In this document: piece by piece, positions 1 to 61,179 of the stretch
How the letters are laid out: each line of letters starts with the position of its first letter
Numbering within the stretch: position 1 is the first letter of the stretch
NCBI GenBank assembly: GCA_020091685.1
Contig: CM034594.1
Location: 489,981 to 553,980 of the forward strand
Length of the DNA stretch: 64,000 bases
Source: Lutjanus erythropterus
Taxonomy: Eukaryota; Chordata; Actinopteri; Lutjaniformes; Lutjanidae
Direction of reading: 5' to 3'
Made by a program: the position numbers and the translations under genes
Notes under the pieces: generated by a model
Databases searched by the model: none
Told to the model about the DNA's origin: nothing
Seen by the model: the letters and a program-made list of their open reading frames with translations, nothing else

Positions 1-740
1 CTGGGTGTTTAGTGGAGGAACTTGTTAGCTCTCTGTCAAGCTAAAAGCCACAAACCACAATAGCAAGGGCAGAATACATCCATTGTGCATTTATCAAATC
101 CCTAAGGAAAGTTGCAGATAAATTAAATGTGAATAGAAGTCATTAGAAGCAAGTTAAGTGTAAGCCTCTGAATCAGAGCTACCTGGAAAGTGTTTGCAGA
201 GGGAGTCTTTATTATTGTTGAATATTACGTGTCACACAATGCAACCTTAATGGAATCCGATGACATGCACCACGCCGGCTAAACGGATTACTCTCCTCAT
301 GTCTCGCCCACCAGCACTCACCGCTGGCATCGCTTGCAACAAGCCACTGACTCAAGATTGCTCCAGTTTTGAACTTCCCACAGGGACTTCAATAACTGCA
401 ATTTATTACGTGGCAGTATAGAAACGGGGCAAGTTTTTTTTTTAACAGTCCCTCCGTCCCCCTCATTTTTCTTCGCTCCTCTATCGTTGTGTTCTTACTC
501 TGTTGTCACACTGGTTCCGATCGGCTACCCGCACATCACAAACCACCGTCTTGCTCTTTTTTTTTCTTCTTCTTCTCTTCTCCTCTGTCTCCAGCTCGAG
601 TACTCCTTCTGAGTCTTTCTCTCTGGGTGTGTGATTAGTCAGATTGAGAGCAGGTCTGCAGCTCCCTGATAGCATCCGTCTCCCCCACATGTTCCCGCCT
701 GGAACAAAATAACTTTGGAGTTAAAGAGCTGGAACTGTGA
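1..740. other. Non-coding flank with a candidate conserved block at about 215-425
   Basis: No gene is visible. The part at about 215-425 is high-complexity, non-repetitive sequence with TAATGG, CAATTTATTACG and ACTGCAATTT-type motifs. That texture resembles conserved non-coding elements near developmental and neural genes. The remainder holds T-rich and TTC-rich tracts around 430-600. The conserved-element reading is inference only, since no alignment was possible. Confidence 0.25.
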
Positions 741-822
741 GTGGTTGGTGGTGGTGTTGGTGGTGGTGCTGGTGTGTGTGTGTGTGCATGCATGTGTGTG
801 TGTGTGTTCGTGTGCGCGCGCG
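741..822. repeat. GGT/GT/GC microsatellite
   Basis: A GGT-rich stretch passes into GT dinucleotides and ends in a short CGCGCG run. Alternating purine-pyrimidine sequence of this kind can adopt Z-DNA. No gene lies beside it. Confidence 0.9.
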
Positions 823-1281
823 GTTGCTGCTATTTTTCTGCACTAAATAGGACCACTGGATACAGAGCAGGGATGGAGCTTGACTTTCATGAACATGAGT
901 GTTGTAGTTGAGGCCTCTGACTATGCTGCCATGTTAGAGATGTTTGTAAACTCACGCCTGCCAAAAAGAAACAATGTCACCTGTTTCTTGACCCGCAAAT
1001 TTGTAGAATTAATATTTTTTAATTAAGTGAGATAATGAAATAAGGGAATGAGTCAATTATTGCTTATAAAGGGAACAGAAAGTTAGACACAATATTAATA
1101 GGATACAGAGATATGGAATGTGAAGAAAATTACTTTATAAAACATACTTTTGGCTGTTCCTTACTTTTCACAAGACTTATAATGAGTTAGGATTTAATTC
1201 TAGACATTAGATTATACTTGTATTTTTAGGAAATTATTAACCGTAGGCATGTACTGACAAGGGCTTAAGTTAGAAAAGTAC

Positions 1282-1410
1282 TTTAACATTTTGGGAAATA
1301 TGCTTCATTGCTTTCTTGCTGAGATATACAGTATCTGTCCATTAAAAATGAAGCCATGACAGGGAGACATTAGCTCAGCCTAAAGACTGAAAGCAGGAAA
1401 CAAATGACAG
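1282..1410 (+). repeat. Fragment of a fold-back MITE common in spiny-rayed fishes
   Basis: The stretch begins TTTTGGGAAATATGCTT, continues with a GCTTTCTTGCTGAGA-type segment and ends TAAAGACTGAAAGCAGG. I recognise this order as one arm of a non-autonomous fold-back element that is frequent in percomorph genomes. Other copies in this window are at 2395-2842 and 33130-33510. The opposite arm is missing, so this is a decayed fragment. The family was assigned from memory. Confidence 0.5.
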
Positions 1411-1977
1411 AAGTGTAAAACGTTCATGATGGAGGGGAATTGGGAGCTGGTGCCAAATTGGTACAGGTTCCTAATTGGTACGTACCATTGATAAGCTCCT
1501 GGACAAATGATGCTATAGTCGGTATTTCTGTAATGTTATTTGTTCTAACATAACTTTTTTAAATATAGCATAGTATTTTTCAAGTCCTAACCATGCCCTA
1601 ATGATAACGAAACTGCCAGCATCAGATGACCATGCATTCGTGTTTACATTCTGTGCTCTCCAGTCATGGCTGATAAGGCTAAATGTTCTGAATCTAACCA
1701 AAATGAAACTAAATGCATCGTAAAAAAAAGGGAAATGAGAGAAATGGAGGTAACACCAGCAACTTCATGAGGACCTTACAAATGCAGCACTTTATAAATC
1801 TGAAGCAGTACAGTGTTTGCCTGCTTCAGCAAAGTGGCTTCTGCAGCTAACATTAAATCCTGAGTGCAGCCTCCCAGCTCCGATGCTGATGGGATTAGTC
1901 AGACAAAAAAATGCAACTGTCATGACCTTGTCAATCAAGGTAACCCTCTCATTATCATTATAAAATAAATTTGCAGT

Positions 1978-2212
1978 TATTAAGGGGATAGTTCACCCAA
2001 AAATGAAAATTCACTCTCTATCTACTCACCCTCATGCCGAGTGAGGGTCAGGTTAATTTTGTTTGTCCACAAAACACCGCAGAAGTTTCACTGGACAACA
2101 GTGTGAATGGTGCTGAGTTTTCAACTGGAAAAAACAACTGGAAAAAAACACATAAAATGCCTCCATAGTGCTTGTCTGGTGTCTCCTAAAGTCCCAACAT
2201 GCTGTTCGCACA
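1978..2212 (+). repeat. Interspersed repeat starting GGGATAGTTCACCC
   Basis: The motif GGGATAGTTCACCCAAAAAT is followed by ATCTACTCACCCTCATGCCG, a GTCCACAAAAC block and a CATAAAATGCCTCCATA block. This block order is a high-copy fish repeat, probably a non-autonomous DNA transposon. The copy appears diverged and 3'-truncated, and it runs into unrelated sequence near 2212. Confidence 0.5.
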
Positions 2213-2394
2213 CTGTCACACCACACACACCCAGTTCAGACAGTGCGCACATGAACATGGCTCCAAGCTGAGGCGCTGACACTCTGGTAAAAACATGGCG
2301 TAATTGACATTTTTTTTAGTCAACGTGGCATGTTGGAGCTGTAGGAGAATATCAGTATTGATTGCAGTATTGATAAATCCCATCAGGCACGTGC

Positions 2395-2842
2395 CACCCT
2401 GTAAACCCACATTTTTTTTTGTTTTTACACTGACATTTAAAAAAAGAAACAAGATATGAGCTTTCAATTAGGGAGCGTGAGGGAGACTATCTCTGTCTTG
2501 CTCTCTCTCCCCCACACATGCACTCACACCCATTATCAGTATTATAAGCCCATCTGGTGAGCTGTTTGCCAACATCGGACTTGTGAGGCCTCTTTTAACA
2601 TCCTGTTTGTGGTGTGAGACAAAGACAAACTACATAGCTGCTGTATTAAGAGGCAGGCAGATTTTATTACCTTCAGACAGAGCGAGGCTAGCTGTTTCCC
2701 CTGCTCCCAGTCTTCATGTTAATCTGGCTAACCATCTCATGGCTATAGCGTCATATTTAACAGGAGGACATAAAAAATGCACCGATCTTCTCATCTAATT
2801 GTCAGCAGGAAGGTGAATAAACATAATTCACCAACATTTTTC
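2395..2842 (+). mobile_element. Fold-back MITE interrupted by a 169-bp insertion
   Basis: The left part (about 2395-2480) has the CCTGTAAACCCACA, GTTTTTACACTGAC and AACAAGATAT blocks of the fold-back MITE. The right part (about 2652-2842) has AGGCAGGCAGATTTTATTAC, AGGCTAGCTGTTTCCCCTG and the GATCTTCTCATCTAA end. In intact copies known to me these blocks are nearly adjacent. Here they are separated by 2483-2651, which is an inverted copy of 6603-6771. The left terminus is hard to place. The element is non-coding. Confidence 0.5.
2483..2651 (+). repeat. Inverted duplication, copy 1 of 169 bp
   Basis: Read on the plus strand this segment matches the reverse complement of 6603-6771 over its full length, with one mismatch that I can see (A near 2645 versus G in the other copy). 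It starts GAGACTATCTCTGTCTTGC and ends near CTGCTGTATTAAGA. Flanking sequence on both sides is unrelated between the copies, and the match ends abruptly. This copy lies inside a MITE, so it is probably the derived one. Confidence 0.9.
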
Positions 2843-4070
2843 ATCGCTTTCGGGGTTATGAAATGACACCGATCAATAAAGGTTCTCCCCATGCTATTAA
2901 CACCAACGTGTGTGTGTTACAGGTTCATAAGTGTGAGCTCAGCAGCTCAGTTGAAGGTTCTGCTCACAGGGGCAACTTTCTGCTTTGTCAGGCACTGCTT
3001 TCCTGATGGAAAGAATAAAAGATTTACGCCTACTGACATCAAAATGCTACCGCTCCCTAGAACCACCATCAGCTTTAGCAACAGGCACTATTTCTCTCTC
3101 CCTTGTTTCCTTGACTCTCTGTCTTTATCTTTGGGGACCTGTGAGGCATACATGCGGGAATGGGTCTTAACTGCAGAGACTTGATGTGACAAGTGGGAGA
3201 GCAGGCACTGTGACCTGCCAACCTTTAAGCTGCCCGAGGCAATGTTCATTGAAATGAATTAGAAAAAGTCTGATTGGTATTTTGAAGGAAATAAGATGCA
3301 GCTCAGTGAGGGCAGCTGTCTGCTTGAATCACATATTCAAGCGATCAGAAAAGTCGAGTCACAAAAGGTGCTTTAGGGCAGGCGCTGTGTCCCAGTGGTA
3401 GAGCTATAATAAACTGTACCTGGCTGCAATATGTCAAGTGAATTTCAAGGCAGACCAGCTAGAAACCTCTGAGATCTCAGAACAATAACTATGAATATCC
3501 TTTTGCAGAGTTATATGGGATAGAGATTTGATAGACTTATTACTTTAAATGCTATTGTTGGAAAGTTGCTTTGGTCCTTGGAAATGTATTTCTAAAGAAG
3601 AAGAAAAAAAAAATCCCCTGAATAAGTTAGAGGGCTTGCAGCACCTTTTCCTCTCTTTCATTCCTCTTCTTATGCATGCAAAAGAATCCTGAAAACATTC
3701 CCAGAACAAACTCCAGTCACTTTGAAAATCCATTACTCCAACAATAAACAATCCATCTAATAGTTTGGGTGACAGTGGCATGCTTGAACTGAGTTAAAGC
3801 TCTCATGATTTTAATTCAGAAATATTGTTTGGTCTAAGGCCAAAAAATAGCCCATCGAGGACAAACCTCCTGCCGATTCAGGGCTATGGACAGCACCAGA
3901 AGTCACTGAACTGACATGTTCAGCAAGTATGTGGATTTTTGGAGCAATTGGCATTTTCTTTTGGGATAATGTATTTATTTGGGATAATGTTTTTACCTGT
4001 CAGACAAATGAGCTTTCAGTCCAAAGGAAATAAGTTGGAAAAACATGCACATCCTAAAATCCACTTAGGA
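2843..4070. other. Non-coding, no recognised feature
   Basis: No gene or recognisable repeat family is seen. A short segment near 3377-3410 resembles the first half of a tRNA-derived SINE (CCCAGTGGTAGAGC), but no second half follows. Short open frames here have no family resemblance. Confidence 0.5.
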
Positions 4071-4074
4071 TAAT

Positions 4075-4118
4075 AAGTAAATAAATAAATAAACAAACAA
4101 ACAAATAAATCAATAAAG
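4075..4118. repeat. AAAT/AAAC tetranucleotide tract
   Basis: Imperfect tandem AAAT and AAAC units. A short ATGCAC triplication follows at 4157-4174. Confidence 0.85.
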
Positions 4119-4377
4119 TTGTTACAAGAATTTATTATGCAGTTAAGCAATGTTTCATGCACATGCACATGCACAGGCTCTTCCTCAGACTTCTAAAATA
4201 TACAAAGTTGCCATCTTAAATACCCATAATACCTCCGATAAACCCCATGTGACATATCCCCACGTGTTACAAACAGTTAATCATGAAATATAGTGGAAAG
4301 ATACACATATCATGTTAAACAATTCATTCACAACACTAAAGTGTTGCTTAAAGAATCAAACATCATCAATATGAATC

Positions 4378-4455
4378 AGCATTAATACACAGCATTAAGC
4401 ATAACATTAGGCAAAAGCATCAGGCATAAGCACAAAGCAATAGGCATACACACAG
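4378..4455. repeat. Degenerate short-period tandem repeat
   Basis: Variants of GCATTAAGCATAA, GCATCAGGCATAAG and GCAATAGGCATA recur about every 12-16 bases. The units are diverged, which suggests an old simple repeat. Confidence 0.5.
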
Positions 4456-4601
4456 ACAGAATAATTAAGGGAATACGTAGTGTTTAGGTATAGCCAGACA
4501 TTTTTAGACCATTGCAGTCCTGAAATAATGTACCATCGGAAGAATGGGCAGTCCTAGTTGGGACAAGGAACCATTTACCCAGTCATCTGGTTAGCATAGC
4601 C

Positions 4602-5078
4602 CAGTGGTTTTTAAACTTTTTTGTGCTCAAGCCACGCCCAAGGACACGCTAAAACTTCAAGGCACACCTGTTTTTATATCTGTGCAAATTAGCTTCTATA
4701 TCTTATTGTTATGACTCTTATCACTCAGTAAACATTATTTTTATTCAGTAACGCCACTAATAAAATATTTAATAACAGAATAATTCATTTGAAACTTACA
4801 TTAAAACAATAACACTCCAATTTCAACCAGACAGGTCACAAAATTAAAATTAGCAGCGACAGACAATAATTCCCACCATCTGGCAACTGCATGAACGGCA
4901 AAAAATGAGGTTAGCTTTGCAGGAAGGTTTTTAAATGATTTTTAGGGTATACAATTTGCCTCTGTATTGGGTGTACAAAGTACTGATATATTAAATTAAA
5001 AATGCATTAATAACATTATTATTATTGCATTTGTCACAAAATTCCCCGGCACACCTGGACTTGCCACACACACCAGTG
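4602..5078 (+). mobile_element. Non-autonomous hAT-like element
   Basis: It opens CAGTGGTTTTTAAACTTTTT, a classic hAT-Charlie-type left end, followed by AAGCCACGCCCAAGGACAC. It closes in a CCCCGGCACACCTGGACTTG and CACCAGTG region, as such elements do. The AT-rich interior has no transposase frame. The right boundary is approximate because a GT-rich stretch follows it. Confidence 0.5.
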
Positions 5079-5279
5079 CTGAGGTACATTGGTGTGTGTG
5101 GCACCTCAAGGAATATTTTAATTACTGCCTGTGCCTGAAAATCACATCTCATCAACATCATTTAGTGTTAAAGGCATAGAAATGTCAGGCTACGCACAAA
5201 ATGGTGACAAAATAAGTAGTCACTCAAGTGTTGCATGCATTAGTCAGAGTGTGTTGTGGGGAGGGGGTTCTGGAGTTCA

Positions 5280-5502
5280 AGTTTTCCTCTTCCTTCATTT
5301 TCCCTCCCTCTGCATTTTCTCTTTGGTGCCTGGAGGAAAGAGCTCCGTGCTCTTGTTCTTTTGTGCTCTCCTGCTTTTCTTTCCAGGCTCATTCTCTTTC
5401 ATCTTCTCCTGGACCCTTATCCCTCCTCCTTCCTTCTACACTTTCTTTGCTTTCTCTTCCTCGTTACTCAGACCGTATGCGCGCGCACACACACACACAC
5501 TT
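5280..5502. repeat. Pyrimidine-rich tract ending in a GC/AC microsatellite
   Basis: The plus strand is strongly C/T-biased (TTCC and TCTC runs) and ends in GCGCGCACACACACACAC at about 5479-5500. Three overlapping open frames across it are rich in Ser, Leu and Phe because of this composition, not because of coding. Confidence 0.75.
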
Positions 5503-5539
5503 AGGATGCAAATATCCATCCAACATTATGTCTTTGTTT

Positions 5540-6602
5540 GAGGAAGCATAGCTGGCCAGAATACCAACGTGTGGAAGCCACCTGTGAGGCCTGTTCCCAG
5601 CAGCAGGAAGGAACTGATTGCTACGGAGCCTTCCTCAGCGATAGATGGACTTTGTTCACAAATGCTGGAGCACACATACGGCTGACTGACCTTGCTGAAG
5701 CCTCCACATGCCCTCCATTATGTTTGTAATAGAGTTTTCATCAGAGGCATTTTCACAATGTGTTGTTCACACGCAGAAAGACACAGTGTTCGCACTCCCC
5801 CACACATTTATATACAGTGGTTTTGGAAAAGCTTCACATGTCTCCTACGCTACATTTAATATGACAAGCCCACCTACAGGAGCAGATAGACACATTCATT
5901 GTCATTTGTAATAATGACAACGGAAGCATTCCCAATATGCAATACATTCTATACACTTTTGTGTCAAACATCCTCCAAGTTGTCAAGTATATCTTTAACT
6001 TACATTGTATTGCTGAGTCACTGTTTAATCGTTAAATCTCAGATGTCAAAAATCCTGAAAAAGTTACCACCAGAGCCCAATGTGATGATTCAAATTCGCT
6101 TGTTTTGTTAGAAGAAACAGTCCAAACCCCACATTTATTTGTTGTTTTTTTTTCTAAAGAAGAAAATGGGAAAAGCAACAAATTATTCTGTTTGTCGAAT
6201 TACTGAAAGAAATAATAGATTAGGAGATGTCAGTCAGTCAACTAAGTAAACTTTTCAACTAAGATCTGTGTTTTAGACGATATGAATCTTTAGGTATCGG
6301 TGGACTGTCAACTGTATGAACACGTAGTTTGGTCTCCTTAATGTGGCTGCAGCAGTTTCACATGAAATGCGTTTCTCAGCAGTATTTCCTCATGGTGATC
6401 ACAGCACTGCTTTCACACATACCTCCTAGTTTGCGGCTTCCCTCCAGTAATCTTGCAAGCACAATCCACCATGTTGCAACCATTTGTCAGCTTGCTGTTT
6501 TAATCACAGCTTTCCAGCAAGTCAGCTGGTCACTTTCTGCCATGCATTAAAGGTGATCGCTTGTTAGACCTTGATCACAGCAGTGACAAAGTGATTGAAG
6601 CT
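5540..6602. other. Non-coding, no recognised feature
   Basis: Mixed unique sequence. No gene, RNA gene or repeat family was recognised. Confidence 0.5.
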
Positions 6603-6771
6603 TCTTAACACAGCAGCTATGTAGTTTGTCTTTGTCTCACACCACAAACAGGATGTTAAAAGAGGCCTCACAAGTCCGATGTTGGCAAACAGCTCACCAG
6701 ATGGGCTTATAATACTGATAATGGGTGTGAGTGCATGTGTGGGGGAGAGAGAGCAAGACAGAGATAGTCTC
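6603..6771 (-). repeat. Inverted duplication, copy 2 of 169 bp (probable source)
   Basis: This is the reverse complement of 2483-2651 with one visible mismatch. It lies in otherwise unique sequence rather than inside a transposon, and it abuts a candidate conserved block (6840-7130). It is therefore the likelier original copy. The near identity implies a recent event or gene conversion between the copies. Confidence 0.9.
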
Positions 6772-6839
6772 TCTTGCCCCCATGCCACTGTGTCTGCCTA
6801 TCTCTGTCTCACAAAGACTCGCACTCTCACACAGACACA

Positions 6840-7130
6840 TACACTCGGCAGTGTAATGCAATCAGCAGGAGCAGCAAACACAAGCAGAGAACATCTGCGG
6901 AGCAACAGAAAGCCAAATCCTCTCCGCTGGGAGACAGTGACCATGGACACACCGGCATATGGATGGGCCAGAGCTTTCCAACGAGGCCAAATAATGATTG
7001 ATGCTAGCAGTCGCTCGCTACACAACAGTCTGTGCATACCCAATTCACCAGAGAGGCTCCGTCGCAGCCAAATGAGCAAATAAACCATAATTTCATTGTC
7101 ATTGACGATCAAATTATCCTGCTAGTCTAA
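6840..7130. other. Candidate conserved non-coding element
   Basis: Complex, non-repetitive sequence with homeodomain-like motifs (AATAATGATTGATGC and CATAATTTCATTG). No convincing reading frame is present; open frames on both strands lack family resemblance. Conservation is inferred from sequence texture only. Confidence 0.25.
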
Positions 7131-7600
7131 TTTGGACCAGGGTGCACATGGTTAGTAAGTTTCTGTTTTGCTGTATCTGCCAATGGGAAGGAAAAGAACA
7201 ATAATAAGAATGGTATTATGCCTTGTGTGTCACTGAAACTTTTAAGCTGAGAAATGCAATGCATCCGTTTTTGGCAGAATGCTGAGTTGGAGGATGACGA
7301 AAAATTCTGTAACAGCCATCTTAAACTTACAAGCCCCAGCATAAATCCCATCTAGCATTGAATTCATATTTGAAGTAATGTTGTTGGTATAAATCCACCA
7401 TTGTTACCAAGAAACACTTGTCTTTGGTTTAGCTGTGATAAGCTTATATTGCAAAAAATCACATCATATTATACAACTCGGTTACTATAAATAATATGAC
7501 AAATTTTGATGGTTTAGATTAATTAGTTATCCCTGACTAAGATTTTTTGAGTCAAATAAGATTTGGCAGTCCAATACAAATTCCTGTAAATCCTTTGGCC

Positions 7601-7752
7601 TTTATTTGACAGAGACAGCTGAAGTGAAGATAGGAAACTGAGTGGAGAGCAAAGGGCCACAGGTGGGAGTCAAACTAATGGCCGCTGCAAAGGACTGATC
7701 GCCTCAGTACACGAGGCGCAGGTTCTAACACCTGAGCTGCAGGAGTGTCCTA
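7601..7752 (-). mobile_element. tRNA-derived SINE, minus orientation
   Basis: On the minus strand a tRNA-like head is visible. An A-box-like part lies near CACCTGAGCTGCAGGAG (about 7730-7748, as written on plus). The plus-strand GGTGGGAGTCAAACTAATGG is the reverse complement of a B-box-like sequence. The tail follows as TTTATTTGACAGAGACAGCT with AGGAAACTGAGTGGAGAG. This matches a SINE layout common in percomorph fishes. It is diverged from a functional tRNA, so no tRNA gene is called. Confidence 0.6.
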
Positions 7753-8790
7753 CATCGTCCTATAGTTCAATTATAAAATCAGTGGACATGTGGAGCGTCT
7801 CTAATCCAGCTACAGCACTGCCGCTGTCCCCTGGCCCCTGGGCTGTACGCGCCGCACTCCTTCACATCGTGAATTAAAGTTTTCTTTTGACCAAACCAGG
7901 GTTGGTGATTGTTGAAAACCAAGATATTTTTGGTGAGTTTTATTTTATTTGAATGAAGCTGACGATTATGCTGTTTCTGGTGAGTTTGGTGAGAACAATA
8001 AATCAGCTGTTTCTAGTTAAAACATATCTTACTCTTTAAAAAGGGTCTCTCTCTGTTATAATCCTTTCTATGATGTCATCGGGCATAACAGTCTGAACCT
8101 GTCAGTGATCAAAAACAAGCACAAGCAAACAAGCAAGCACCATCTGCCCTGCGTGTTCTGCTGGTCTGCTCTGATGAACACCACGTCACGCTGCTTTCCA
8201 TTTCTATCACGCTTCTCCTCTTCCATCACAGTTAGTTTTGTGGTTTGAGGTGATTTAGAGACTTGATTCGTTAAGTTTAAAGAACGCCATACTGTTGCAA
8301 TGGCGCAGCTAAAAAACAGTAACTGAGACTTGTTTACCAACCACGCCGTTGCATTTTGTTATGAGGATCTTTTAATAAGAGCACCAGCTAATATAAAAAT
8401 ACAGTTTTGAGTCTCCATAATAATTCTTTAAAATGTTCTCCCTTTGCATTTTTGTCAGCCTGCGTCTTATCCTGTAACTGTAATGCAGACTGACTGACAA
8501 AGGAAAAAAAACATAAATGCTTGACTGGAAGAATCTCAGCTGACTGAGGGGTCTCTGACTGATGATATGAATCGTCAGCTATCAGGACGAAGCCCTAGTT
8601 TAGATATTTAACTATTTGTATTGATGGATGTGGGCTTTGTGGTGATCATTAATGGTGTGTAGTTTACTAATAATTTAATAACTGATATGATACACATCAA
8701 AATGACAGGGAAGTGTAGACAATTCACAGATCTATCAAAATATCTGAATGCTGTTTTGTTATAATTCTAGGCGTGCTTAGGCATACATCA
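7753..8790. other. Non-coding, no recognised feature
   Basis: Unique AT-rich sequence. No gene or repeat family was recognised. Confidence 0.5.
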
Positions 8791-8799
8791 GGCATAAAT

Positions 8800-9230
8800 T
8801 TCTCTTGTCCCATAACAGTACAAACTGGGCCCTGTTTTTGTGCTCTGCCAACCACGCAGTGACCTTGCAGCAGTGAACTGACAGTAAAGTGACGTTGCAA
8901 GCAGATGTTTTCTCACCTGCATCTGTTCTGTAGTTGTCTGCAACATATCCGGTGCTAAATGGGTTGAGGGCAGCATTAATGGGGAGGCAACCTGTGACAC
9001 ACTGCAATTTTAATATCAACACTAATTTCTGCACCCCTTCCACCATGTCTTATTGCAGGCACTGACTTTACAATGCTGCATGTGCACATAAAATAGATGT
9101 GGTTGATTAAATCCCGGCCTCCAGGTGGGGACAGCAGGTCTGCCATGTATTCCATTTGCAGCTTGTAATTTGAGGAATGTGGCGTGCATTTTCAAAGCGC
9201 TGCACAATTTCACACGAGTCATCCAGTGTT
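8800..9230. other. Candidate conserved non-coding block
   Basis: High-complexity sequence with AGCATTAATGG, TGCAATTTTAATATC and GATTAAATCCC motifs, the last resembling a TAATCC-type homeodomain site. It lacks simple repeats and transposon ends. Two overlapping minus-strand frames of about 70-90 codons have no recognised domain. The enhancer-like reading is inference. Confidence 0.25.
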
Positions 9231-10730
9231 GCTACCTAGATTAAATGTTTTGCAACTATAAGCACACTTTTTAAAACAGGAAAACAAACAAGTTCATGTG
9301 ACATTTTGCACAGGGTCCAAATTTCTGCAGTCTATAGTCAGAGCTGCAGTTATTATGAGCAAAATAGGAGATGGAGAAGTGAAGACAGACAGTTACATAT
9401 AAGCATCGCACATAATTGTTGACACAGCACTATTTCTATGTTTGACTGGAAAGTTGAAACTGTGGTCACCATTCTGGCTGCACCACTATGTTGCACAGAA
9501 AGAGCACCATTGTCTTTATCTGCAGAAAATTTGATATTTTATTAACTAAAAATCTGAAATCCGAGTATGAACATAAGAAATATGGAAATATTTGTATCCA
9601 ATCTCGGAAAAGTGTCAGCCCTAATATTTGAAAATGACCAGACACATCATCAGCTGTTGTGTGTGTTGGTCAAAACATACACACGTGTTCTTGGATGAAA
9701 CTTGCATCATGGCACACATTGTCTCTGCTGCATGCCTCATATTGCTCCGTGTACTGTGTGTTATATGTTTTACTGTACAAAGAGTTACTAGAGGAAATAC
9801 AGAGACATATTTTTGTATACAGACTGTGTGCCAGGTGTGTGCACATTTGGAAACAAATAGAAGCCTGACTAGCCAGTGAGATGATTGGTTACTTCCAGAT
9901 TGCACCAGATTGGCTGTCGATGTAAGAAGCCAAGCTGACCTGCTGATGCAGGTGTGACAGAATACCACCATAATTGCCAACAGCCCTTAATACACTTGTT
10001 TCCCCCCTTACTTAACCCATTATGTGGGTTGTGCACTCACCTTGATTACCAAAATAGGGCACCATGTGCCTTAGGGGAACAAGCCTGAATTTAAAAAGTT
10101 GTCCAAAGACCTGATGAAAAAAAACACAGAATAAACAAGCTTTCTTTTTTGTTTAGACCTTTTGTGCCACCACTACCTCCCTGTAGTAGTTTGTTAATGA
10201 AAGACAAGTATATGTTATTTCACACAGTGTCTATTCTGCTGTCCAGCTGCAGTAAAGAGACTGGTGTCTATTTAAACAAATATATAGACTTTTCTATGTA
10301 TTGTTGCTATATGTCTTTGAGACAAGTGTGTCCATTGATCTTCCATCTGCCCTCACACTGTGGCTCTGTTGCACAAAACAGTCAGGCTGTGCTTTACATG
10401 CACTCTGCATAGTGCTGCTATTTGTTACTGCATCTGTGCACTTTACACTGCAGCCTCTGAGGACATATCGGGTGGCTCAATTACTCACATGCATAAGTAT
10501 CCACAAACACCTCTATTGTCAGATGTATTTCCAGTGGTGACAACAATGCTTAAGGGGAAATTATTGTCTTGGAATCCGCAGAGTTTTATTGAAATGTGTC
10601 CATGTTAGTGTGTGACCTCTCCAACTAGAAACACAAAGACGTTTTTGTTGGCTGCAACAGGAGGATTTCCCAAAAGGCCAGCCTGAAGCTGACATGTTTG
10701 TTTCAGCAGCTTGTGTACCTCCACATCTCC
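9231..10730. other. Non-coding, no recognised feature
   Basis: Opposed short frames at about 9621-9980 occur on both strands and match no protein family I know. Nothing else stands out. Confidence 0.5.
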
Positions 10731-10731
10731 A

Positions 10732-10732
<1 letters not shown>

Positions 10733-10786
<54 letters not shown>
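10733..10786. repeat. AC microsatellite, about 26 units
   Basis: An uninterrupted AC run. It creates poly-Cys/Val frames on the minus strand that should be ignored. It is likely length-polymorphic. Confidence 0.95.
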
Positions 10787-10789
<3 letters not shown>

Positions 10790-11273
10790 TGTCACTTTTG
10801 CATGGTCCCATTTACTGCAGTTGATTTGACAGTGTGTACATATGTGAGTGTAATGTAATTCGACTTGCAGACTTCCTGAGTGTAATGAAACTCTTCTGCA
10901 GGAGCTGTGGCATGAGATTCAATAAGAAGGGTGACCTTGTTATTCTGTAAATATTGATATAAATAGTATGTCAATGTATTAATTAGCACTGTCCATGTTG
11001 TAATTTTTAGTACCTGATGTGATAACTTATACAGTCGTTGGTGAATGTGATCATCTATGGTGTTTGAAGTGCTGGAAGTCTCTCTACCATTTGCAGAATT
11101 TTTTTCTTTTACACGTCATGTGATGGAAACTACAACCAGTTCTCTACCATTCCATCCATCATCCACTTATCCATCTTATTCTCTCTTTAGTTTTTAGGCT
11201 ATCACCTCTCACCATGGAAATACCACCACAATGACATGTTGTTTCTCACAATTTATCAGCAAGTGACACATGC

Positions 11274-11320
11274 TATACACACACACACACGCACACACAC
11301 ACTCACACACACTCACAAAG
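11274..11320. repeat. Interrupted AC microsatellite
   Basis: AC units broken by GC and TC substitutions. Confidence 0.9.
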
Positions 11321-11829
11321 AAAAGCAGGGAAAGATAGAAAATTGAAGAATCATCCTTAAAAATCCTTCAGAGACAAAGACTGTTCAGTAATCTTAAAAT
11401 ACTGCATACTGAGGTTCAGGTATGTTAGATATTAGGTGTCATCATATCCACCAATAATTTATATTTCTGCTGTCAATCATTGTGTGAAAATATTTGTCAA
11501 TCTTTTTTACAATTTAGAAGTGACATTTAAGTCAGGGTAGCTGTGTGACTCTAAGAATTGAAATGTCTGTCATTTGATCCACCACTTTGGTCAGATTGAA
11601 CATTTATGCCTCTTTTGAGAAGGTTGCTGTGTGGGTATCTGTGTTGTAGCTATGATAGTGGCTCTACTAGTCTGTGTGGTAAGAAGTTGTAAGTTTCCCC
11701 AAATAAAATGTAAAAAAAAGTAAATTAAAGTGCAGTAAAGAAACCAATCAATCAAAGGCACAAGAGAACAGCAGAATTTTCTATTTATATTTGAAGGTGG
11801 CACAGATCATAAGGAAGTTTTTTTTCCAA

Positions 11830-13370
11830 TTGTGTGCAGCACAGTAGCTAAAAGTGGCTTCAACTTGTTTGGTTCAGAGTCAAGGTCACTAGCATTGTTG
11901 AGTGACTTATACGCTATAGCAGAGCTAGCAGAATTATAAAATATATTCTACAAGTTAATTAAAACACCATCAGATTGACCAACAACTTAATTCTTTTGTC
12001 CTTGCTGCCAAATACAATGATTTTATCTTTGAGTTGACGGACATTTTATTGCAACCAGCTGTATACCTGCTCTAAGAACTGATAGAGTGAGAGTCTGAGT
12101 CACCTTACTCACTTCTTGAACGAGATAAATAAATGAGTGTCATCTGCATAGCTGTGATAATTGTTGCAACTGTGTCATTGCCATTTTGTCTAATTTGATC
12201 TGGAGGGAGCTTTACGTGTTGAATAATAGCAGCCCAAGAGTCAAACCCTGTGGAACTCAACATATCATGGAGATCTGCTCAGTTTTATTTCCACCAACAG
12301 TCTCCATGCTGTGATGTGATCTGAAGCTGGATTAAAGGCTGTCCAAAAGACCATTTCCTTTTTAAAAAGTTGTTGAGCTGAATCAAAACAACCTTTTTAA
12401 TTATTTTTCCAATAAAGAGTGGATTGGAGATGGGTCTGTTATCCAAGTTGCCCTTATTCAGAAGGGGCATAGCAACTGCAGTTTTAAGTGATTTTGGAAT
12501 AATGCCGGATGAAAGTGAGCTATTGACAATTTTCAGCACATCCATTTACAAGAAACTGAAAACAGTTTTTGAAAAAGGCTTGTTGGCAGGGTGTCAAAAC
12601 AGCAGGTGGGTGAATTAAGATGTTTCAGTACATCTCCAGAGTTTTAGCAGTGATAGCACTGAATTTTGACAATCTAGCCAAATTGTTTCTGTGTGGTCGC
12701 AGCAGTCGTCTGTTTTCATTGTTTGACATGGAGGAATTCATGGCAAGTCATAGTTTTTCATTTAAAAAAGATGCAAACTCTTTACACTTATTGGAAGAAA
12801 GGAAGTTGAGGGATTAGTTTGCTTCTCAGTGCTTGTAAATAAGGTATGATAATTGTGTTGATAATTCTGTTGATGTTAGACTTAAATGATATCCTAGACT
12901 TATTTATGACAAAAATGTAAATTGAAAGCTCTCTTTTTAAAAAAGGCAAATATGTTCAATCTGACCAAAGCTCTCTTTAAAGATGTCATAGTGAATATGA
13001 AGTAGCAGCCATTTGCATTTAGCTTTCTTGTATTCTCTTTTCTGCCTTGTGATAGGTGGGATGTTTCTCCGTAGTGCTCTTTTCACCTTTTCCAGTGCAA
13101 TAGCATTAATAACTTCAATTATAATCAACATTTTAGAATTAAAATTGTCAAAGAATAAATTAGCGGAGTCTGGTTTCAGGCTTACTACTATTATATATAT
13201 TTTTATGACAGATCTGGCTTAGGCATTAGAAGGAAGTGACTTCTAATAACAATCCGGTGTGGACCCTTGTTTATGTGTGGCCCATTTAGATGCTGCAACA
13301 AATCAAACATTTTAAAATATTTTATTTTGTCTTTTGGATAAGCAATTTATGACAGTTTAGTCAAAATCTG
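11830..13370 (-). mobile_element. Decayed LINE (CR1/L2-like non-LTR retrotransposon), minus strand
   Basis: On the minus strand the pieces appear in LINE order. The end of the endonuclease domain is near 13230-13310 (FDLLQHLNGPHINKGPHRIV, matching the usual GPTHNRGHTLDLVI region). The linker KCKWLLLHIHYDIFKESF is at about 12970-13030. The reverse-transcriptase segment is SSGIIPKSLKTAVAMPLLNK with RPISNPLFIGKIIKKVV at about 12380-12520. Then come a VPQGLTLGLLLF block near 12220-12256 and the catalytic YADD at 12139-12150, followed by LQLN/KDKIIVFGS-like sequence near 12000-12060. Stops and frame changes separate the blocks, and there is no intact frame, so it is an old inactive copy. The 3' end was not found with confidence. 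Confidence 0.8.
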
Positions 13371-18210: not shown

Positions 18211-21200
18211 CATCGTTGTTTCACTGCTGTTTCTCATTACTACACACAGCATGCTGCTAATAAAGCATAAAGGCTTCAAAATCATTTCCAAAGCGCTAAT
18301 ACTCTCTACTTCTGCATGGTTTCTTCTGTTGACAGACTGGTGTCACACTGTTGGCTTTTCATATGATTGGACATGTTAGAACGAATACAGGGATTCAGGC
18401 CACATCCACACTGCATTTGGATTATCTTTTTTTCAATTTTCTCTGTTTTGGCCTTCTATCAACACTGAGTTGGTGTTTCCACACCTGTAAATGGTTTTGA
18501 AAATAATAATAATTTCAAAAATGTCTGGCAACATAGTGTGATCATGTACTATAAGTCCTATAAACATAAGTCCTATACATACTTAATTATGTCGTTTGTA
18601 ATTGTCTTTGAAAGCTATGACCAAATACAACAAGACAAGAAAAACAGAAATGTTTCCTATACGTATAATATACAGAATACAATGAAACACAAAACTCTCT
18701 ACATTATGTGTGCATATTAAGCAAGGTTATTGTACAGGGGAGTTTTTAGTCCTCTTGCACTTATACTGGGATGTTCTGAATCTACGGAGATGGAAGGGTT
18801 TCAAAACTGTGAATGGAGTGGTTTGTGCAGGCCAGTTTAGACCTGGCTTTGTGGCAAACCTGCTGGTTGAAGAGGAACTATGGGTTCCTGTGGGTTACCA
18901 TACCTGGCAGTCATAGAGAAAGTGAGAACAGATTCTATAAATGGCGAGGACATAATTTTTCTATCTACATTAAAAAATTTAAGCTTCCTAAGGCAAAAAA
19001 AAACATTGCTATCCCCTCTTACAGACTACATTAGAATTAGCATCAAATTTCAAGTCATTAACAATGACTCTGCCAATAAATATATATGGCTCTATAAATT
19101 CAATGCCAATTTATTTAATGACTGTCTCAGAATCTACACAGTGAAAAGCTACATTTCCTGGTGTTCACATTTACACCAACCCCTGTCATATAAATACAGG
19201 CAGGGTGGAGAATTTAGAGTCGCAAAGACAGGAAGGTGTGATTCTGGGTTTGAATGTATTTTTTAAAATTTGGTAAGGGAGAATGGTCAACCTAAAACTG
19301 GCTCGTCACACACTCTGTTCACTTATCCATCCACCCCAACCTCTTCTATTGATGCTTTGCAGTTCAAATAGCAATGTCATGCTATGTCTGCTTTTGGTCC
19401 TCGCTCACAGAGCTGTTTGCCCCCCCCCCTGCTCCCCTGCTCAAAGCCACACCAGGCTCAAATAGCTCACTCCAAAAAAGAAAAATCTGCATTGTAATTC
19501 AGCTTTAGTTTAAACCATAGCCCGTAGGCCAAAACACACTAAATACATCAATAAACCCACATCATTTGAAGCTTCTATGGCATACTGCAGGCTTCAGATT
19601 TAAAATTCCAGCACCACAGAACCAGCAGTATTTTAGGAAAAGGTCGCTATTCGTATGTATCTATTTATTTATTCACTATTATTAATGTTAATAGTGAGAC
19701 AGCATCTGGACAGTAAATCATGATTTACAATAATACAGTGCAGTGACAGATGTTTCATGGAAGAGACGAGCATCAGTCTGTTTGTTACTGAAACAGATGT
19801 TTTAGTCTGCAGTGTATAAACCACATAACTGTACAGGAACATCAGGATTTATTACTAAAAAAGTTTTAAATCAGTCGGCAATTCACACACACTCTCCCCC
19901 AGCTTCCCTCCTCACTGCTGCCCCTCTCTCCTCCTACATAGTTGTAATTAATTGGCGTAGAGTAATTAAGTGTTTAAAACTACACAAGGTGGACATGGAG
20001 TAAAAAACATCACACACCACAGATCTTTACAGTAACACTGGGATTCAAGATCATTAACTGTTTAAATAAAGTTGGAACATCTGTCCATATTCACACGCTC
20101 ACTCCTTCTCCCTCCTACTCTCGCTCTCTGCTGCTCTCACTCTACATGTTGAGAAAGGTGTCTTTTTAGATTGCAGAATGAATCATTACTAACTGAAATG
20201 ATGTCTCCACATTCTTTTTCTTGTATAACCTTCCCTTTCTTTTTTAAAGTACTTTGTGAATTCCATTATCGAGCTTGCAACAGCTGAGTTCTGACTGAAA
20301 ATAGGCTGGGTGTCTGTGCAATGGGCACTTGGGCATGTGTCAAACTCACGGTGTGAGTGGTACCTGTGCAAAATTGGAGAGGGAGATAAGGTGATGCTCC
20401 ATCCTTTTAAAAAAGCCGCTCTGCGCTCCATCCAACCCTCCCTCGCTTGCACTCCTGGCTTGCTTCCACTCCACTGACATGCTCTGGTCCTGTCAGACAG
20501 AAAAAAATAATTCAGATGGCCACAACACATAAACAGAGCATAAAACAAGCATTTTCTAATGTAAAGACAGTTACAGTGTGGATGAAGACAGCAGAGTAAT
20601 TCAAACCTCCTGATTACAGTTTCAGCGACAGCAGTAAGAACAAAAGTCTAGCAGCAACTGGGCAACTGTATTGCATCTGTCTGTGATTGCTGCTGTTACT
20701 GACATATCTCTCTATTGTGACTTTTTAACATATAAATATTTAATCTCAATGTACTCAATGCAAAAGTTAAATTAGGCATGGTTAACAGAAGGCAATCAAG
20801 TTAAAATTTTACTTGCATTATACTTGCACATCTGACAGGGGAACACCTGCAACATGCTCAGCTGAACTCAAACACAAAATACCAGGAGAATGAATGGAGT
20901 TTTAACCTTGTATTTACCACTTTTGTTGAGCAATGTGCATTCTTTCTTTCCCATATCCTTAACATATAATCAAAATTGTATTGTTTCCCAAAATAAATGA
21001 TTAGGTAGATTAAAAAACGCAACAGTTTTCCTCTTGTTTTCTGAGTTTCAGTGCGTATTACAAACTTAGAAAATGATCTGTAATCTCGACTGTGCATGGG
21101 ACATTTTTTAAGCATTTCTAAATTTATCTGCATAAGTGTGAACCCAATTTTAATGACAATGAAGAAGAATTGGAATTTTGTCTGTATTCAGAGTCTTTCA

Positions 21201-32881: not shown

Positions 32882-33129
32882 CTCTAAACATAAATGCTTC
32901 TGAATGGCTGCATTTTAGATATTGCCAAAGAAGAATAAGATAAGAAGATAGATCAATTAAATTCAACAAGAAATTATGGTAATAGAGTTAGTGCATTGTT
33001 TAGTTTTGTGGATAATGTGCATTTTAGCTGTTTTACCTAACCTGGAGATTCTTGTTTTCTTCCACATAGCCCTAGGCATATTGTAAAAAACAATGTTTGC
33101 AATTTTGGTAACTATTGTTATTTGTGTAG

Positions 33130-33510
33130 ACTAGAGACTAGATTAGAGTGATGCGACTCCTATGTCTGTATGAAAAATATAAGGTTACAATCAGCAAACA
33201 CTCGGGGCAACAGCTAGCCTGACTCAGTTCAACAGAAAATCCAGCTACCAGCACCTCTAATGCTCACTTCTTAAGAGACAAAAATACAAGAAGAACAATC
33301 TGTGATATAAATTGTTGCAGTTGCTTTTTTGTACAGATTGAGTAAGCAAGATACAACATGATAACTGTGAACTTTAGCGGTGTTGCTAAGTAGTTTTGCT
33401 CTGTCTTGTGCTAAGCTAAGCTAACCAGCTGCTAGCTACAGCAACATAGCATACAGACATCAGAAAGATATACATCATCTCATGTATGCCAGACAGCAAA
33501 AAAAACATAT
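33130..33510. mobile_element. Fold-back MITE, near-complete copy
   Basis: Contains AAGGTTACAATCAGC and CAACAGCTAGCCTGACT, then CCAGCTACCAGCACCTCTAA, then the opposed arm GCTAAGCTAAGCTAACCAGC with TGCTAGCTACAG. The two arms read in opposite directions, as expected for the fold-back element also seen at 1282 and 2395. It is non-coding and diverged. Confidence 0.55.
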
Positions 33511-49962: not shown

Positions 49963-50612
49963 TAAAGGCATAGTTCAGATTATTTGATGTGGAGTTGAAT
50001 TTATTGATGGTTAGTGTATTATCTATAGTTGATGCCGGTCGGATTACCCCAGTTAGGAGAAGCAGAGAGGGGCACCTGCATGGAAACTAAGCTACAGTAC
50101 TAAGTTTCAGTACTGCTGTGGATGGGTCATCTAAATAAACCAGTCTCAGTTTAAGTGTACACTATATTTAGAATATTTTCACAGCCTTATTTTACCATCA
50201 GACACACTGTTTGACAGGAAACCACGATTGTATAAGCCAAATATTGCTCTCCAAATCAACCAAATTCCATAGGTGAAATAAGTAATTTTATATTGTGGAA
50301 CCAATGGGTTGCTGGTATACCACTGCACTGATCTGTTGATTTGTTGTATATTGTATGACTTTAATATTTTAAAAGGGTAGTTCAGATTCACAGAAGTCAC
50401 ATGATAACAGGTGTTATTGTTTATTGGTAGTAGCGGTAGACCAGCAACCCCTGTGTTGTACAAAGTAACATGACTAATTTTACCTATGGACTCGTGTCGG
50501 TTTGGAGAGAGCAAAATTTGGTTTATATAATGGTAGTTTCCTGTCAGAAAATGCTGTCTGGCGGCAAAGTAAAGTGGTGAAAGTATTCTAAATATAGCGT
50601 ACACTTAAACTG
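49963..50612. mobile_element. Fold-back (palindromic) repeat element
   Basis: TTTAAGTGTACACTATATTT with TAGAATATTTTCAC at about 50151-50184 is the inverted partner of GTGAAAGTATTCTAAATA with TAGCGTACACTTAAAC at about 50578-50609. The similarity continues inward (GACAGGAAACCACG versus the complement of GTAGTTTCCTGTCAG), so the halves are long diverged inverted copies. The AGTTCAGATT start occurs twice, near 49970 and 50382. It is non-coding; the 141-codon minus-strand frame here is incidental. Confidence 0.65.
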
Positions 50613-53600
50613 ACATTGATCTATCCATCACATACATATATATATCTTTAATATACCTATAATAATACACCTAGAATGTGTGTGAGAAATCAAACCTTGG
50701 CCAGGTCATTTATTATAGGCCAAATACCATGAGAAAAAAAGTCCTGTTCTTACAAGAAAAAAAAAAAAAAAGAATTCCCATGGTCATTACGGAAAAGTTT
50801 GTGGTTTTACCTTTGTAGATCCAAGTGTATGGTTTATGAAGCAGCATGAAATATTCAATGTGTGGCTTGGGACCATAACAGCTTTTGGCAAAGCACATAT
50901 TGATGGAGAGTTTGAGCTGAAGAGGAAAACCAAATAGAAAACAAAAAAAGGCACCCCAGTTTATGAGATAATCCGAGCAGCATGCGTACACTCAACACAC
51001 AAAAAAGTACTTAATATGTTTATCTGACAGAACATACAGGCAGAAATGAAAATCATTTAGATATGATCACATTACACAGCACAGGTATAGAAGTCGGCCT
51101 ATAGATCTCAGGAACACACCATCTAACGTCTGGGGAAGGAAATCACTCTTCAGCAGCCAGCCCTGTTCAGTTCACATCACAGGTCTGCACAAAGAAAACA
51201 ACATCAGAACTGCAGTTCAATTAGACATCTGCTCTCACACAAAAACCACTCACAGGCCAGCTTCAACTTTGTCAAGGTTACGCATTTATGCAAAGGAGGC
51301 CCGGACGGTGGCTTTTGGAGTGCCTTTTTTATGCCTAATGTGTCTTTTGAAGTGTGTTTTGTGTGTTGTCTTATGCAAGTAGGTGTTGGCAGCCTTTGCA
51401 GGTAGGCATTATGCCAGTATAAACAGGCTTCTTTGGGAATGCATAACACATTACTCAGATGTTAATCTAACCAAAAGCAGAGGGGAAATGGAAAAAAAGA
51501 AAAAAAAAAATAGGTGACCATTTGTCACTTTCATCTCTTGCCACAACAAGTTATTATACATGAAGTATGCACCTGCCATGTTGAATAAATATTCAGCCAG
51601 AGATTGGTCATTGACTTATCAGCTGGTGTATTAGAAGGTTGGTGTTTAAAGATATTTATCAGTTGAATTAAAGAGATAGAAACAAAAATTGCTGGAGTGT
51701 GTTCACTATGTAGTTTTCCCTTTAAACTTACAACTATCACTGAAGCACTTTGTCCACAATGTCCAAGCCTTGTGCCAAAGTTTTGCCTTATTTTATGTTT
51801 CTGCTGACAGAGAGAAAGACGGATGAGAGCAAGGCTTCAGGCCAAGGTGCGTTATGTTGCGTGTGTGTGTTGGTGGTGATACAGTATACTGCTGAGTATG
51901 TTGCTGGGTATCCTTTTTCCTGCGTATCATGCATTTTGTTGCCAAGACTCAGGTTTTGATAGGAATGCCAGGGCAAATTATGCATGCACTCCTTTTTTAT
52001 AAAGAGAAGAAAACTTGTTCTCTTTTTATCTCTTGTGTCAGTGTTTTTGTCCTGTGCACACACATCCACTTACTTTAAGTGTGTGTGAGGGGGGGCATGT
52101 TGTGCTAATGCAGCCTACTCTAGTTTGACACAGAGCATAGTTGGCTCGGAAAACCAAAAAAGAAAAAAAAAGAAAAAAGATGGATCCAATCCGAGGGGCA
52201 AGCCTGGATCATTGATCTTCTATAGCTCATGGCAGATCTGAGTGCCATTTGTTTTCATGCAGAGGTTAGATAGTGCACAATGGAGGTGGAGGAAAAATCA
52301 CAATCCTATTATAGAGCCTCCTCTTGTTGAAACTTTTCTGCTGTTTGTGTTTCATAGGCCATATTGATCTGGAACCCAAAGATGGAGAATACATCATGGA
52401 AAGAAATTCAACCAAGAGGAGGCTTATACAGAAACACAAAACACCCAATTCCTATTCAATCAAAATGACTGACAGAAAAAAAAATGCATTGGAAGGAAAA
52501 CACAATTTCCTAAATATTTTGGACTTAATGGGTTATTAGTGAAGTCTTTTATGTTTCAAGCTAGTTATTTTCATCATCCACTGCTTTTCATTAACTTCAC
52601 TAGAAGGTGGGAGAACTACAGAGAGGATTTCACAAAACGAAATTTTGAAACCTTTGAGCCTCCCGAGGACTGCAGCTCCGTCAGCTAATGGAGCTGAAAA
52701 CTTTATTTCACTCAGCCAAAATTACTTCTCAATATATAGCCACTGAGGACTATATTGATTACCTCACATTTTATTACATGTTGTCGGAGTGGAAGCAAAC
52801 TCTATAAGCCAGTGGCCATCAGCTCACTGCAGTGAGGCAAATATGCTGCTGTTGCTGTGGCTGGGAAGCTGGAAGTTTGTGCTCTACCGCCTTTATGCTG
52901 CTGCTGAGGTTTGCTGCTGACCTTTCTACTGGCACAATATTTGAAATCAAAATCTGCATGTTCATACTGACAAAGTTCTGGTTTTGCTTCCAAAATGAAG
53001 TAAAAAATTTGGCTTTGATGCAGCAGTGTACATATGCTGATCAGCGAAAGTTGTTGAGACTTTTGTGCAACCCAGTTACTCTCTGTCCTAAATGCAACAC
53101 CAGTGCCTGCAATAGGTCAGTTGTATTAGGTGAGTGTGGGCTTTTTGTGTGTGCATGCACAATTTGTCTGGGTAAGATTTTACTCTTTCTTCTCCACCAC
53201 TTTTTCTACTCCCACTGTGACTACCATCTGTGGACACTATTAAGTGAACAGACTTTGAGTTCACTGCAATGTGAACTCAGTGTGATAGTTGACAGCAGTT
53301 TAACAGCCATTTTTGGATGAATTTTGATGCCTTCTGGGTGCAAGGTCAAGACAGAAATGCAGTGTTACTGAAAACTAACACTTGGCCAGTGATGCCAGTA
53401 GATCATTATATATAATTTTATTCAGATAAAGTTGCTAAAAGTGACATGCATTGCTGCTAACAAGTAGCAAGTCCCTGCTCCCTCCCAACTACACAGAAGT
53501 ACACCTGTCAAACAAGAATAAATGCTGCTTGTGTTGGCATAAGTGATATGGAGCTTATGCTAACAACCAGTCACACATGCCAGTCCTCAAGCTGGTGTGA

Positions 53601-60424: not shown

Positions 60425-60739
60425 GAAAGTGTTGGGGAGCCTCTGCTCTACATAAGTGAATATCTGTGAGCATACAGTTTGTTTGAAGACTAATGATAAC
60501 GTGATACTGTAGCGATCCCCGCTGAGACCTTGTCTCTCTGCTTGGCTTCACCTCCAGGCAGGTAAGAGCACATGGTTGGGTGTAGATTACCACCTGTGGT
60601 ACTGGTCAGGATGGGCAGTTTTCAGTATCATTCCCTGCCTGTCTACTTTGTTGTCACAAGATTCCTCTTTTCTTTCTTTTTTGTTTCTTGTTTAAAACTT
60701 CTTTCGCCTCTGTTCTTCAATCCTCACGCAGTTGTGTCT

Positions 60740-60859
60740 CACTGAAAGGGACCTCAGGTGGTGCTGTTGTCCTGACAACCAATAAGGGGAGCATCACAGT
60801 CAGGCGGCTGGATAATCTGAGAGAGAGAGGGAGAGGGAGAGAGAGAGAGAGAGAGAGGG

Positions 60860-60911
<52 letters not shown>

Positions 60912-61179
60912 CACAAGCCTGCCTCTCTCCATCTCCGTGGCTGGCTGCGCCGTCCCTTTACGCGGAGAGCATTACGCATCAGTGGACTATAGAGCGACGA
61001 TCGCACGTAAAAGTCTTTCAGGAAACCCGTCTCAGGCATACCTTCCGGACTGCTTTGGACTTAAATCCATCCGGCGTTTTCCTCCGAGAAGTCTGGACAA
61101 CTACTCTTCTTCTCCCTCTCCCTCTCTTTTTTAACCCTTGGATCTATAGCTGCCGAGAGGCGCGCTCCTGTGCTTTAAA
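60740..61179 (+). promoter_or_regulatory. LSAMP: LSAMP promoter and 5' leader
   Basis: A CCAAT box lies at 60779-60783, followed by a long GA tract and then a GC- and CpG-richer stretch from about 60940. No TATA box is seen near the expected start, so initiation is probably dispersed. From 60909 to 61179 there is no ATG, and an in-frame stop (TAG, 61147-61149) precedes the start codon. The 148-codon frame beginning at 60688 is an artefact of the GA repeat. The exact transcription start cannot be seen. Confidence 0.6.
60819..60908. repeat. GA tract in the LSAMP promoter
   Basis: About 90 bases of almost pure GA units, broken only by a few GGG and one GCGACA interruption. Such purine tracts in promoters often exclude nucleosomes or form triplex DNA. 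The length is likely polymorphic. Confidence 0.95.

Follow-up and report, generated by a model that had tools for sequence, protein, structure and literature searches.

How did a 169-base segment come to lie, in inverted orientation, in the middle of a repeat in the genome of Lutjanus erythropterus, with its counterpart 4 kb away? The question arises in a window of 64,000 nucleotides (assembly GCA_020091685.1, contig CM034594.1, positions 489,981 to 553,980 of the forward strand), where positions 2483–2651 are the reverse complement of positions 6603–6771. A first-pass annotation, made from the letters of the window, had described the two copies as differing at one base and as lying between unrelated flanks, and both descriptions held when the copies were aligned exactly. 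Identity was 168/169 with one mismatch (E 3e-84 in the within-window comparison, and again in a base-by-base check), the match could be extended to 175 bp (2480–2654 and 6774–6600) with three mismatches when one mismatch was tolerated per edge, and the sequence flanking the 175-bp match gave no alignment between the two copies. By their coordinates, the copies are separated by 3951 bases (2651 to 6603). The genome was then searched for further copies of the 169-base unit, as the annotation had suggested, and the segment was found at exactly two places, 2483–2651 and 6603–6771, among 937.6 Mb in 444 contigs; this two-copy count is strong, not absolute, as the whole-genome search leaves simple repeats and very frequent words out of account. 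The sequences on either side of the second copy (6300–6602 and 6772–7100) each found only themselves in the genome search. An all-against-all comparison of 264 kb of the same contig, comprising the 200 kb upstream of the window and the window itself, returned 28 self-matches, of which four reached 85% identity over a length of 50 bp or more; the pair under study was the strongest, and each of its two copies was covered by no other self-match in this sample. The inverted copy is confirmed. An assembly or library artefact that made one of the copies chimaeric is very improbable, given that the copies differ by one base, that the window is without any N, that a single 47.2-Mb contig contains both copies, and that the recipient site shows a small loss from the repeat in which it stands. 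The features of the locus are collected in Table 1, where the copy at 2483–2651 is termed the patch and that at 6603–6771 the donor.

Table 1. Positions, strands, and supporting evidence for the features of the locus (numbered from the first base of the window)
Feature	Position	Strand	Basis
Probable left inverted arm of the interrupted MITE copy	1268–1402	−	Profile score of 33.0 bits
Interrupted fold-back MITE, part left of the patch (centre)	2411–2482	+	Profile match at 2411–2476; case from the join with the right part
Inserted patch, recipient copy of 6603–6771	2483–2651	+	168/169 identical; found twice in the genome search
Right arm of the interrupted MITE, right of the patch	2652–2835	+	Genome matches and profile score
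Donor (template) copy in single-copy surroundings	6603–6771	−	Identity; donor flanks match only themselves

The identity of the interrupted repeat was approached from the right side of the patch. The right flank (2652–2900) had at least 40 matches in the genome, itself included (40 scored of 545 candidates), and the other 39 listed matches were spread over many contigs with identities of 71–86%. Nine of these copies (L026–L034) were aligned, and some of them, including L027, L028, L032, and L034, shared a centre to the left of the arm. When L027 served as the query, at least 42 matches were obtained, again counting the query (40 of 2845 candidates scored). On the basis of these searches we built a family profile from 22 copies, namely L027, L028, and 20 more from the L027 search (21 of the 41 other matches were used in addition to L027); the copies were selected for an L027-like centre, and the left flank of the patch played no part in choosing them. 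Comparison of the profile with the window placed 2411–2476 at model positions 138–196 and 2652–2835 at model positions 209–393, on the same strand and in the same order. Taken separately, the right part scored about 117.1–117.6 bits and the left piece, a weak match, 6.3 bits. Joining the left flank directly onto the right part raised the profile score from 117.1 to 133.5 bits, a value reached by none of 7000 control joins (maximum 130.0) in which the left flank was replaced by random genome pieces (3000), AT-matched pieces (3000), or shuffles (1000). By eye, 24 of the 30 bases that end in GAGC to the left of the patch agreed with the family majority.

Several searches that used the left side by itself were negative. 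The left piece was absent at E 0.01 from the profile scan of the 264 kb, the left flank found only itself in the genome search, and BLAST of this flank against the nine single family copies gave nothing convincing. Fold-back pairing between the two recipient flanks was at chance, with 81 of 200 shuffles scoring as high (30 of 200 when the joined flanks were compared with themselves); the failure of this flank-against-flank test is explained by the result of the genome search with the right flank. We take the two sides of the patch to be consecutive, collinear parts of one fold-back MITE, a case that rests on their collinearity, and the earlier claim that both neighbours of 2483–2651 belong to a single such element is borne out by the profile and the joined-flank score.

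The span of 2395–2842 that had been proposed for this MITE fared less evenly, for the membership of 2411–2476 and 2652–2835 stood whereas the element itself may be larger, with a probable left arm at 1268–1402. We infer that 1268–1402 and 2652–2835 belong to one element, which would set its full extent. Alignment of 1200–2482 with the nine family copies yielded the arm matches and one 30-base match with no shared interior, partly because a different dispersed family occupies 1980–2348, in the stretch that separates the MITE centre from its probable left arm; scoring 40 of 4277 candidates gave at least 59 matches for that family, the query among them. The right end of its matches often fell near 2348, and inverted matches were seen beside several of its copies.

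Other family members show what the repeat looks like when nothing interrupts it, which makes the interrupting segment, 2483–2651, the new copy and 6603–6771 the template; the interrupted MITE thereby fixes the direction of copying without an outgroup. The same collinearity bears on a different history, in which the 3.95 kb interval was inverted by staggered breaks that left one inverted duplicate at each end. Such an inversion predicts exactly the observed layout of two inverted copies flanking one interval, but it also joins flanks that were not formerly neighbours. Here the sides ending at 2482 and beginning at 2652 are consecutive in one MITE, with centre and arm collinear at a level matched by none of the 7000 controls, so that they were neighbours before the patch arrived, and we consider the inversion extremely unlikely. 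The GC skew of the 3.95 kb interval (−0.071, compared to a background mean of −0.001 with an sd of 0.042 for 66 windows) was not telling. Nor was the Markov log-likelihood of the segment in the context of the donor and recipient flanks, the sign of which flipped with flank length and model order and for which native flanks won in 55–62% of the controls. With regard to relative age, 147 of 188 aligned columns in the right part of the MITE were identical to the family majority, corresponding to a divergence of approximately 22%, in comparison to 0.6% between patch and donor. The patch is thus the younger of the two and arrived after the MITE had aged; this comparison gives an age order only.

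The junctions of the patch can be read against the uninterrupted family. In the alignment of the joined flanks with the 22 family copies, six family columns were missing at the junction, and all 22 copies have bases there; pairwise alignment with the family majority instead placed four missing bases at the junction and two just to its left. The two alignments show a loss of about 4–6 bases from the target. The 30-base flanks shared no direct repeat of 5 bases or longer, indicating that no target duplication was made, and inverted repeats within the 169-base segment were not above the level of shuffles, in keeping with the earlier statement that the ends of the patch carry neither terminal repeats nor a target duplication. 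These results weigh on the possibility that the 169-bp segment is itself a small mobile element that inserted into the MITE. Its occurrence at two places agrees with such an origin, but two copies were all that the genome search returned, and we observed neither several copies with the same ends, nor terminal repeats or a target duplication, nor an Rfam match at the gathering score in positions 1–12000, nor a tRNA in the window; we regard a mobile element as scarcely credible. As expected, the 169-base segment had no match in the phage collection, and a 29-base piece of it had none in viral or prokaryote contigs.

By the anchored score, microhomology at the junctions is at chance. This score was 1 per end, and of 3000 random pairs 44% did at least as well; for the 175-bp version of the match it was 0. 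At least two of three edge bases matched on both sides, which occurred in 3% of random cases, by a measure settled on once the data had been seen. The sequence next to the right edge of the donor is CT/CA-rich and contains a 12-base inverted match (6756–6767 with 6798–6809). A hairpin at this edge was considered and rejected, as the folding energy of 6745–6825 was no better than that of shuffles on either strand (z values of −0.21 and −0.64).

From these sequence comparisons, the locus is very probably a class-2 or MMBIR-like templated insertion, in which an inverted 169-base patch was copied from single-copy DNA 4 kb away into an old MITE. This is the explanation that the first-pass annotation had preferred to carriage by a transposon, and the two copies, the collinear MITE pieces, and the lack of any mobile-element signature speak for it. 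In the proposed sequence of events, the fold-back MITE was already old and diverged when a break parted its centre from its right arm, some 4–6 target bases were lost at the break, and the gap was closed with an inverted copy of single-copy DNA from 4 kb further right along the chromosome. The trigger may have been a double-strand break or the collapse of a replication fork, and the template was presumably the nearby DNA of the same chromosome or of the sister chromatid. Three routes could lead to this product: the resected right-hand 3′ end might fold back on its own strand and copy 6603 to 6771, the left-hand 3′ end might switch to the opposite strand of the intact duplex, or end joining might capture a ready-made local DNA fragment. 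The junctions, with an anchored microhomology score at the chance level, do not tell template switching from fragment capture.

The position of the donor bears on the source of the patch. By simple arithmetic, if donors came from random places in 938 Mb, the probability of one lying no more than 4.1 kb away would be about 9e-6, which favours a local DNA template over fragments or RNAs from anywhere. The patch could in principle have been templated by RNA, with a transcript of the donor reverse-transcribed into the break, and this is one of the models published for class-2 insertions, put forward for human cells (PMC5110952). Neither end of the patch has a poly(A) run, judging from the junction letters, and this is no argument against RNA because class 2 lacks poly(A). 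A donor just 4 kb off is unexpected if transcripts are drawn genome-wide, and we judge an RNA template to be quite unlikely, with a nascent local transcript as its possible form.

Mutations of this kind are already known, and the locus adds one further example. Templated insertions have been reported from the human germline and from cancers (PMC5110952, PMC8421209), and they occur at complex insertions in humans as well (PMC5120786). Human class 2 templated sequence insertion polymorphisms lack a target duplication or poly(A) and have a microdeletion, microhomology, or added bases at their junctions (PMC5110952). The present patch resembles them in being a copy of an identifiable, ordinary genomic locus with no duplication of 5 bp or more, no poly(A), and a small target loss, a microdeletion of 4–6 bases; it differs in that their templates come from distant regions, whereas the donor of this patch, known from a single assembly, lies at a distance of 4 kb. 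MMBIR-type templated insertions, which include germline variants in people, are likewise inverted copies of a nearby template (PMC8421209); in that work the templates were sought within 100 bp, whereas here 3951 bases lie between the copies and the microhomology is not above chance. Short-range template switches in great apes also left reverse-complement copies of nearby sequence fixed in the germline (PMC7954356), but those copies have a median length of 12 and a maximum of 128 in the gold-standard set, shorter than 169, and much closer templates.

Fold-back templated insertions at breaks in yeast, which are inverted copies too, bear on the first route (PMC11724301). There, one end is primed and the other is joined with 0–5 bp of microhomology; the insertions, mostly 5–34 bp long and ranging from 2 to about 150 bp, make use of an imperfect inverted match of 10 bp beside the break, with a 41-nt loop. 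Extensive resection suppresses these insertions (PMC11724301). In contrast, the patch described here has a length of 169 bp and would require a loop of 4 kb, and a search of its edges found no inverted match of that type. The long resection that a 4-kb fold-back needs and the missing inverted match count against a simple transfer of the yeast model to this locus.

The event itself is an ordinary mutation; what sets the locus apart is that a single event is well polarized, with the interrupted repeat revealing the new copy, the prior state of the target, and the approximate number of bases lost. An abundant repeat family amounts to a set of known empty sites, and in this capacity it could show, from one assembly of a repeat-rich genome, at what rate templated insertions arise, how long they are, and from what distance and in which orientation they are copied. 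A broader proposal would be that fold-back MITEs are recurrent germline break sites, patched with inverted copies from several kb away by long-resection fold-back synthesis, and that MITE copies thus keep a record of such repairs for which a single genome, with no outgroup, would suffice; we hold this proposal to be speculative and unlikely.

The remainder of the window was surveyed for genes and for other repeats. A Pfam scan of 30 of the 172 listed open reading frames gave no match at the curated cut-off, with two weak matches below it (60586–61131 and 20192–20647). Another copy of the interrupted MITE family occurs at about 33086–33486, with an inverted arm, a centre, and a forward arm. A 490-base element at 50135–50624 is 70% identical to its own reverse complement and is one member of a large family (7003 candidates, with 80 matches from the 40 that were scored, mostly one per orientation at the same place). 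The 200 kb upstream of the window contains two inverted pairs that are perhaps the arms of young MITEs, one of 114 bp at 95.6% identity with approximately 229 bases between its members and the other of 54 bp at 92.6% identity with approximately 445 bases between them.
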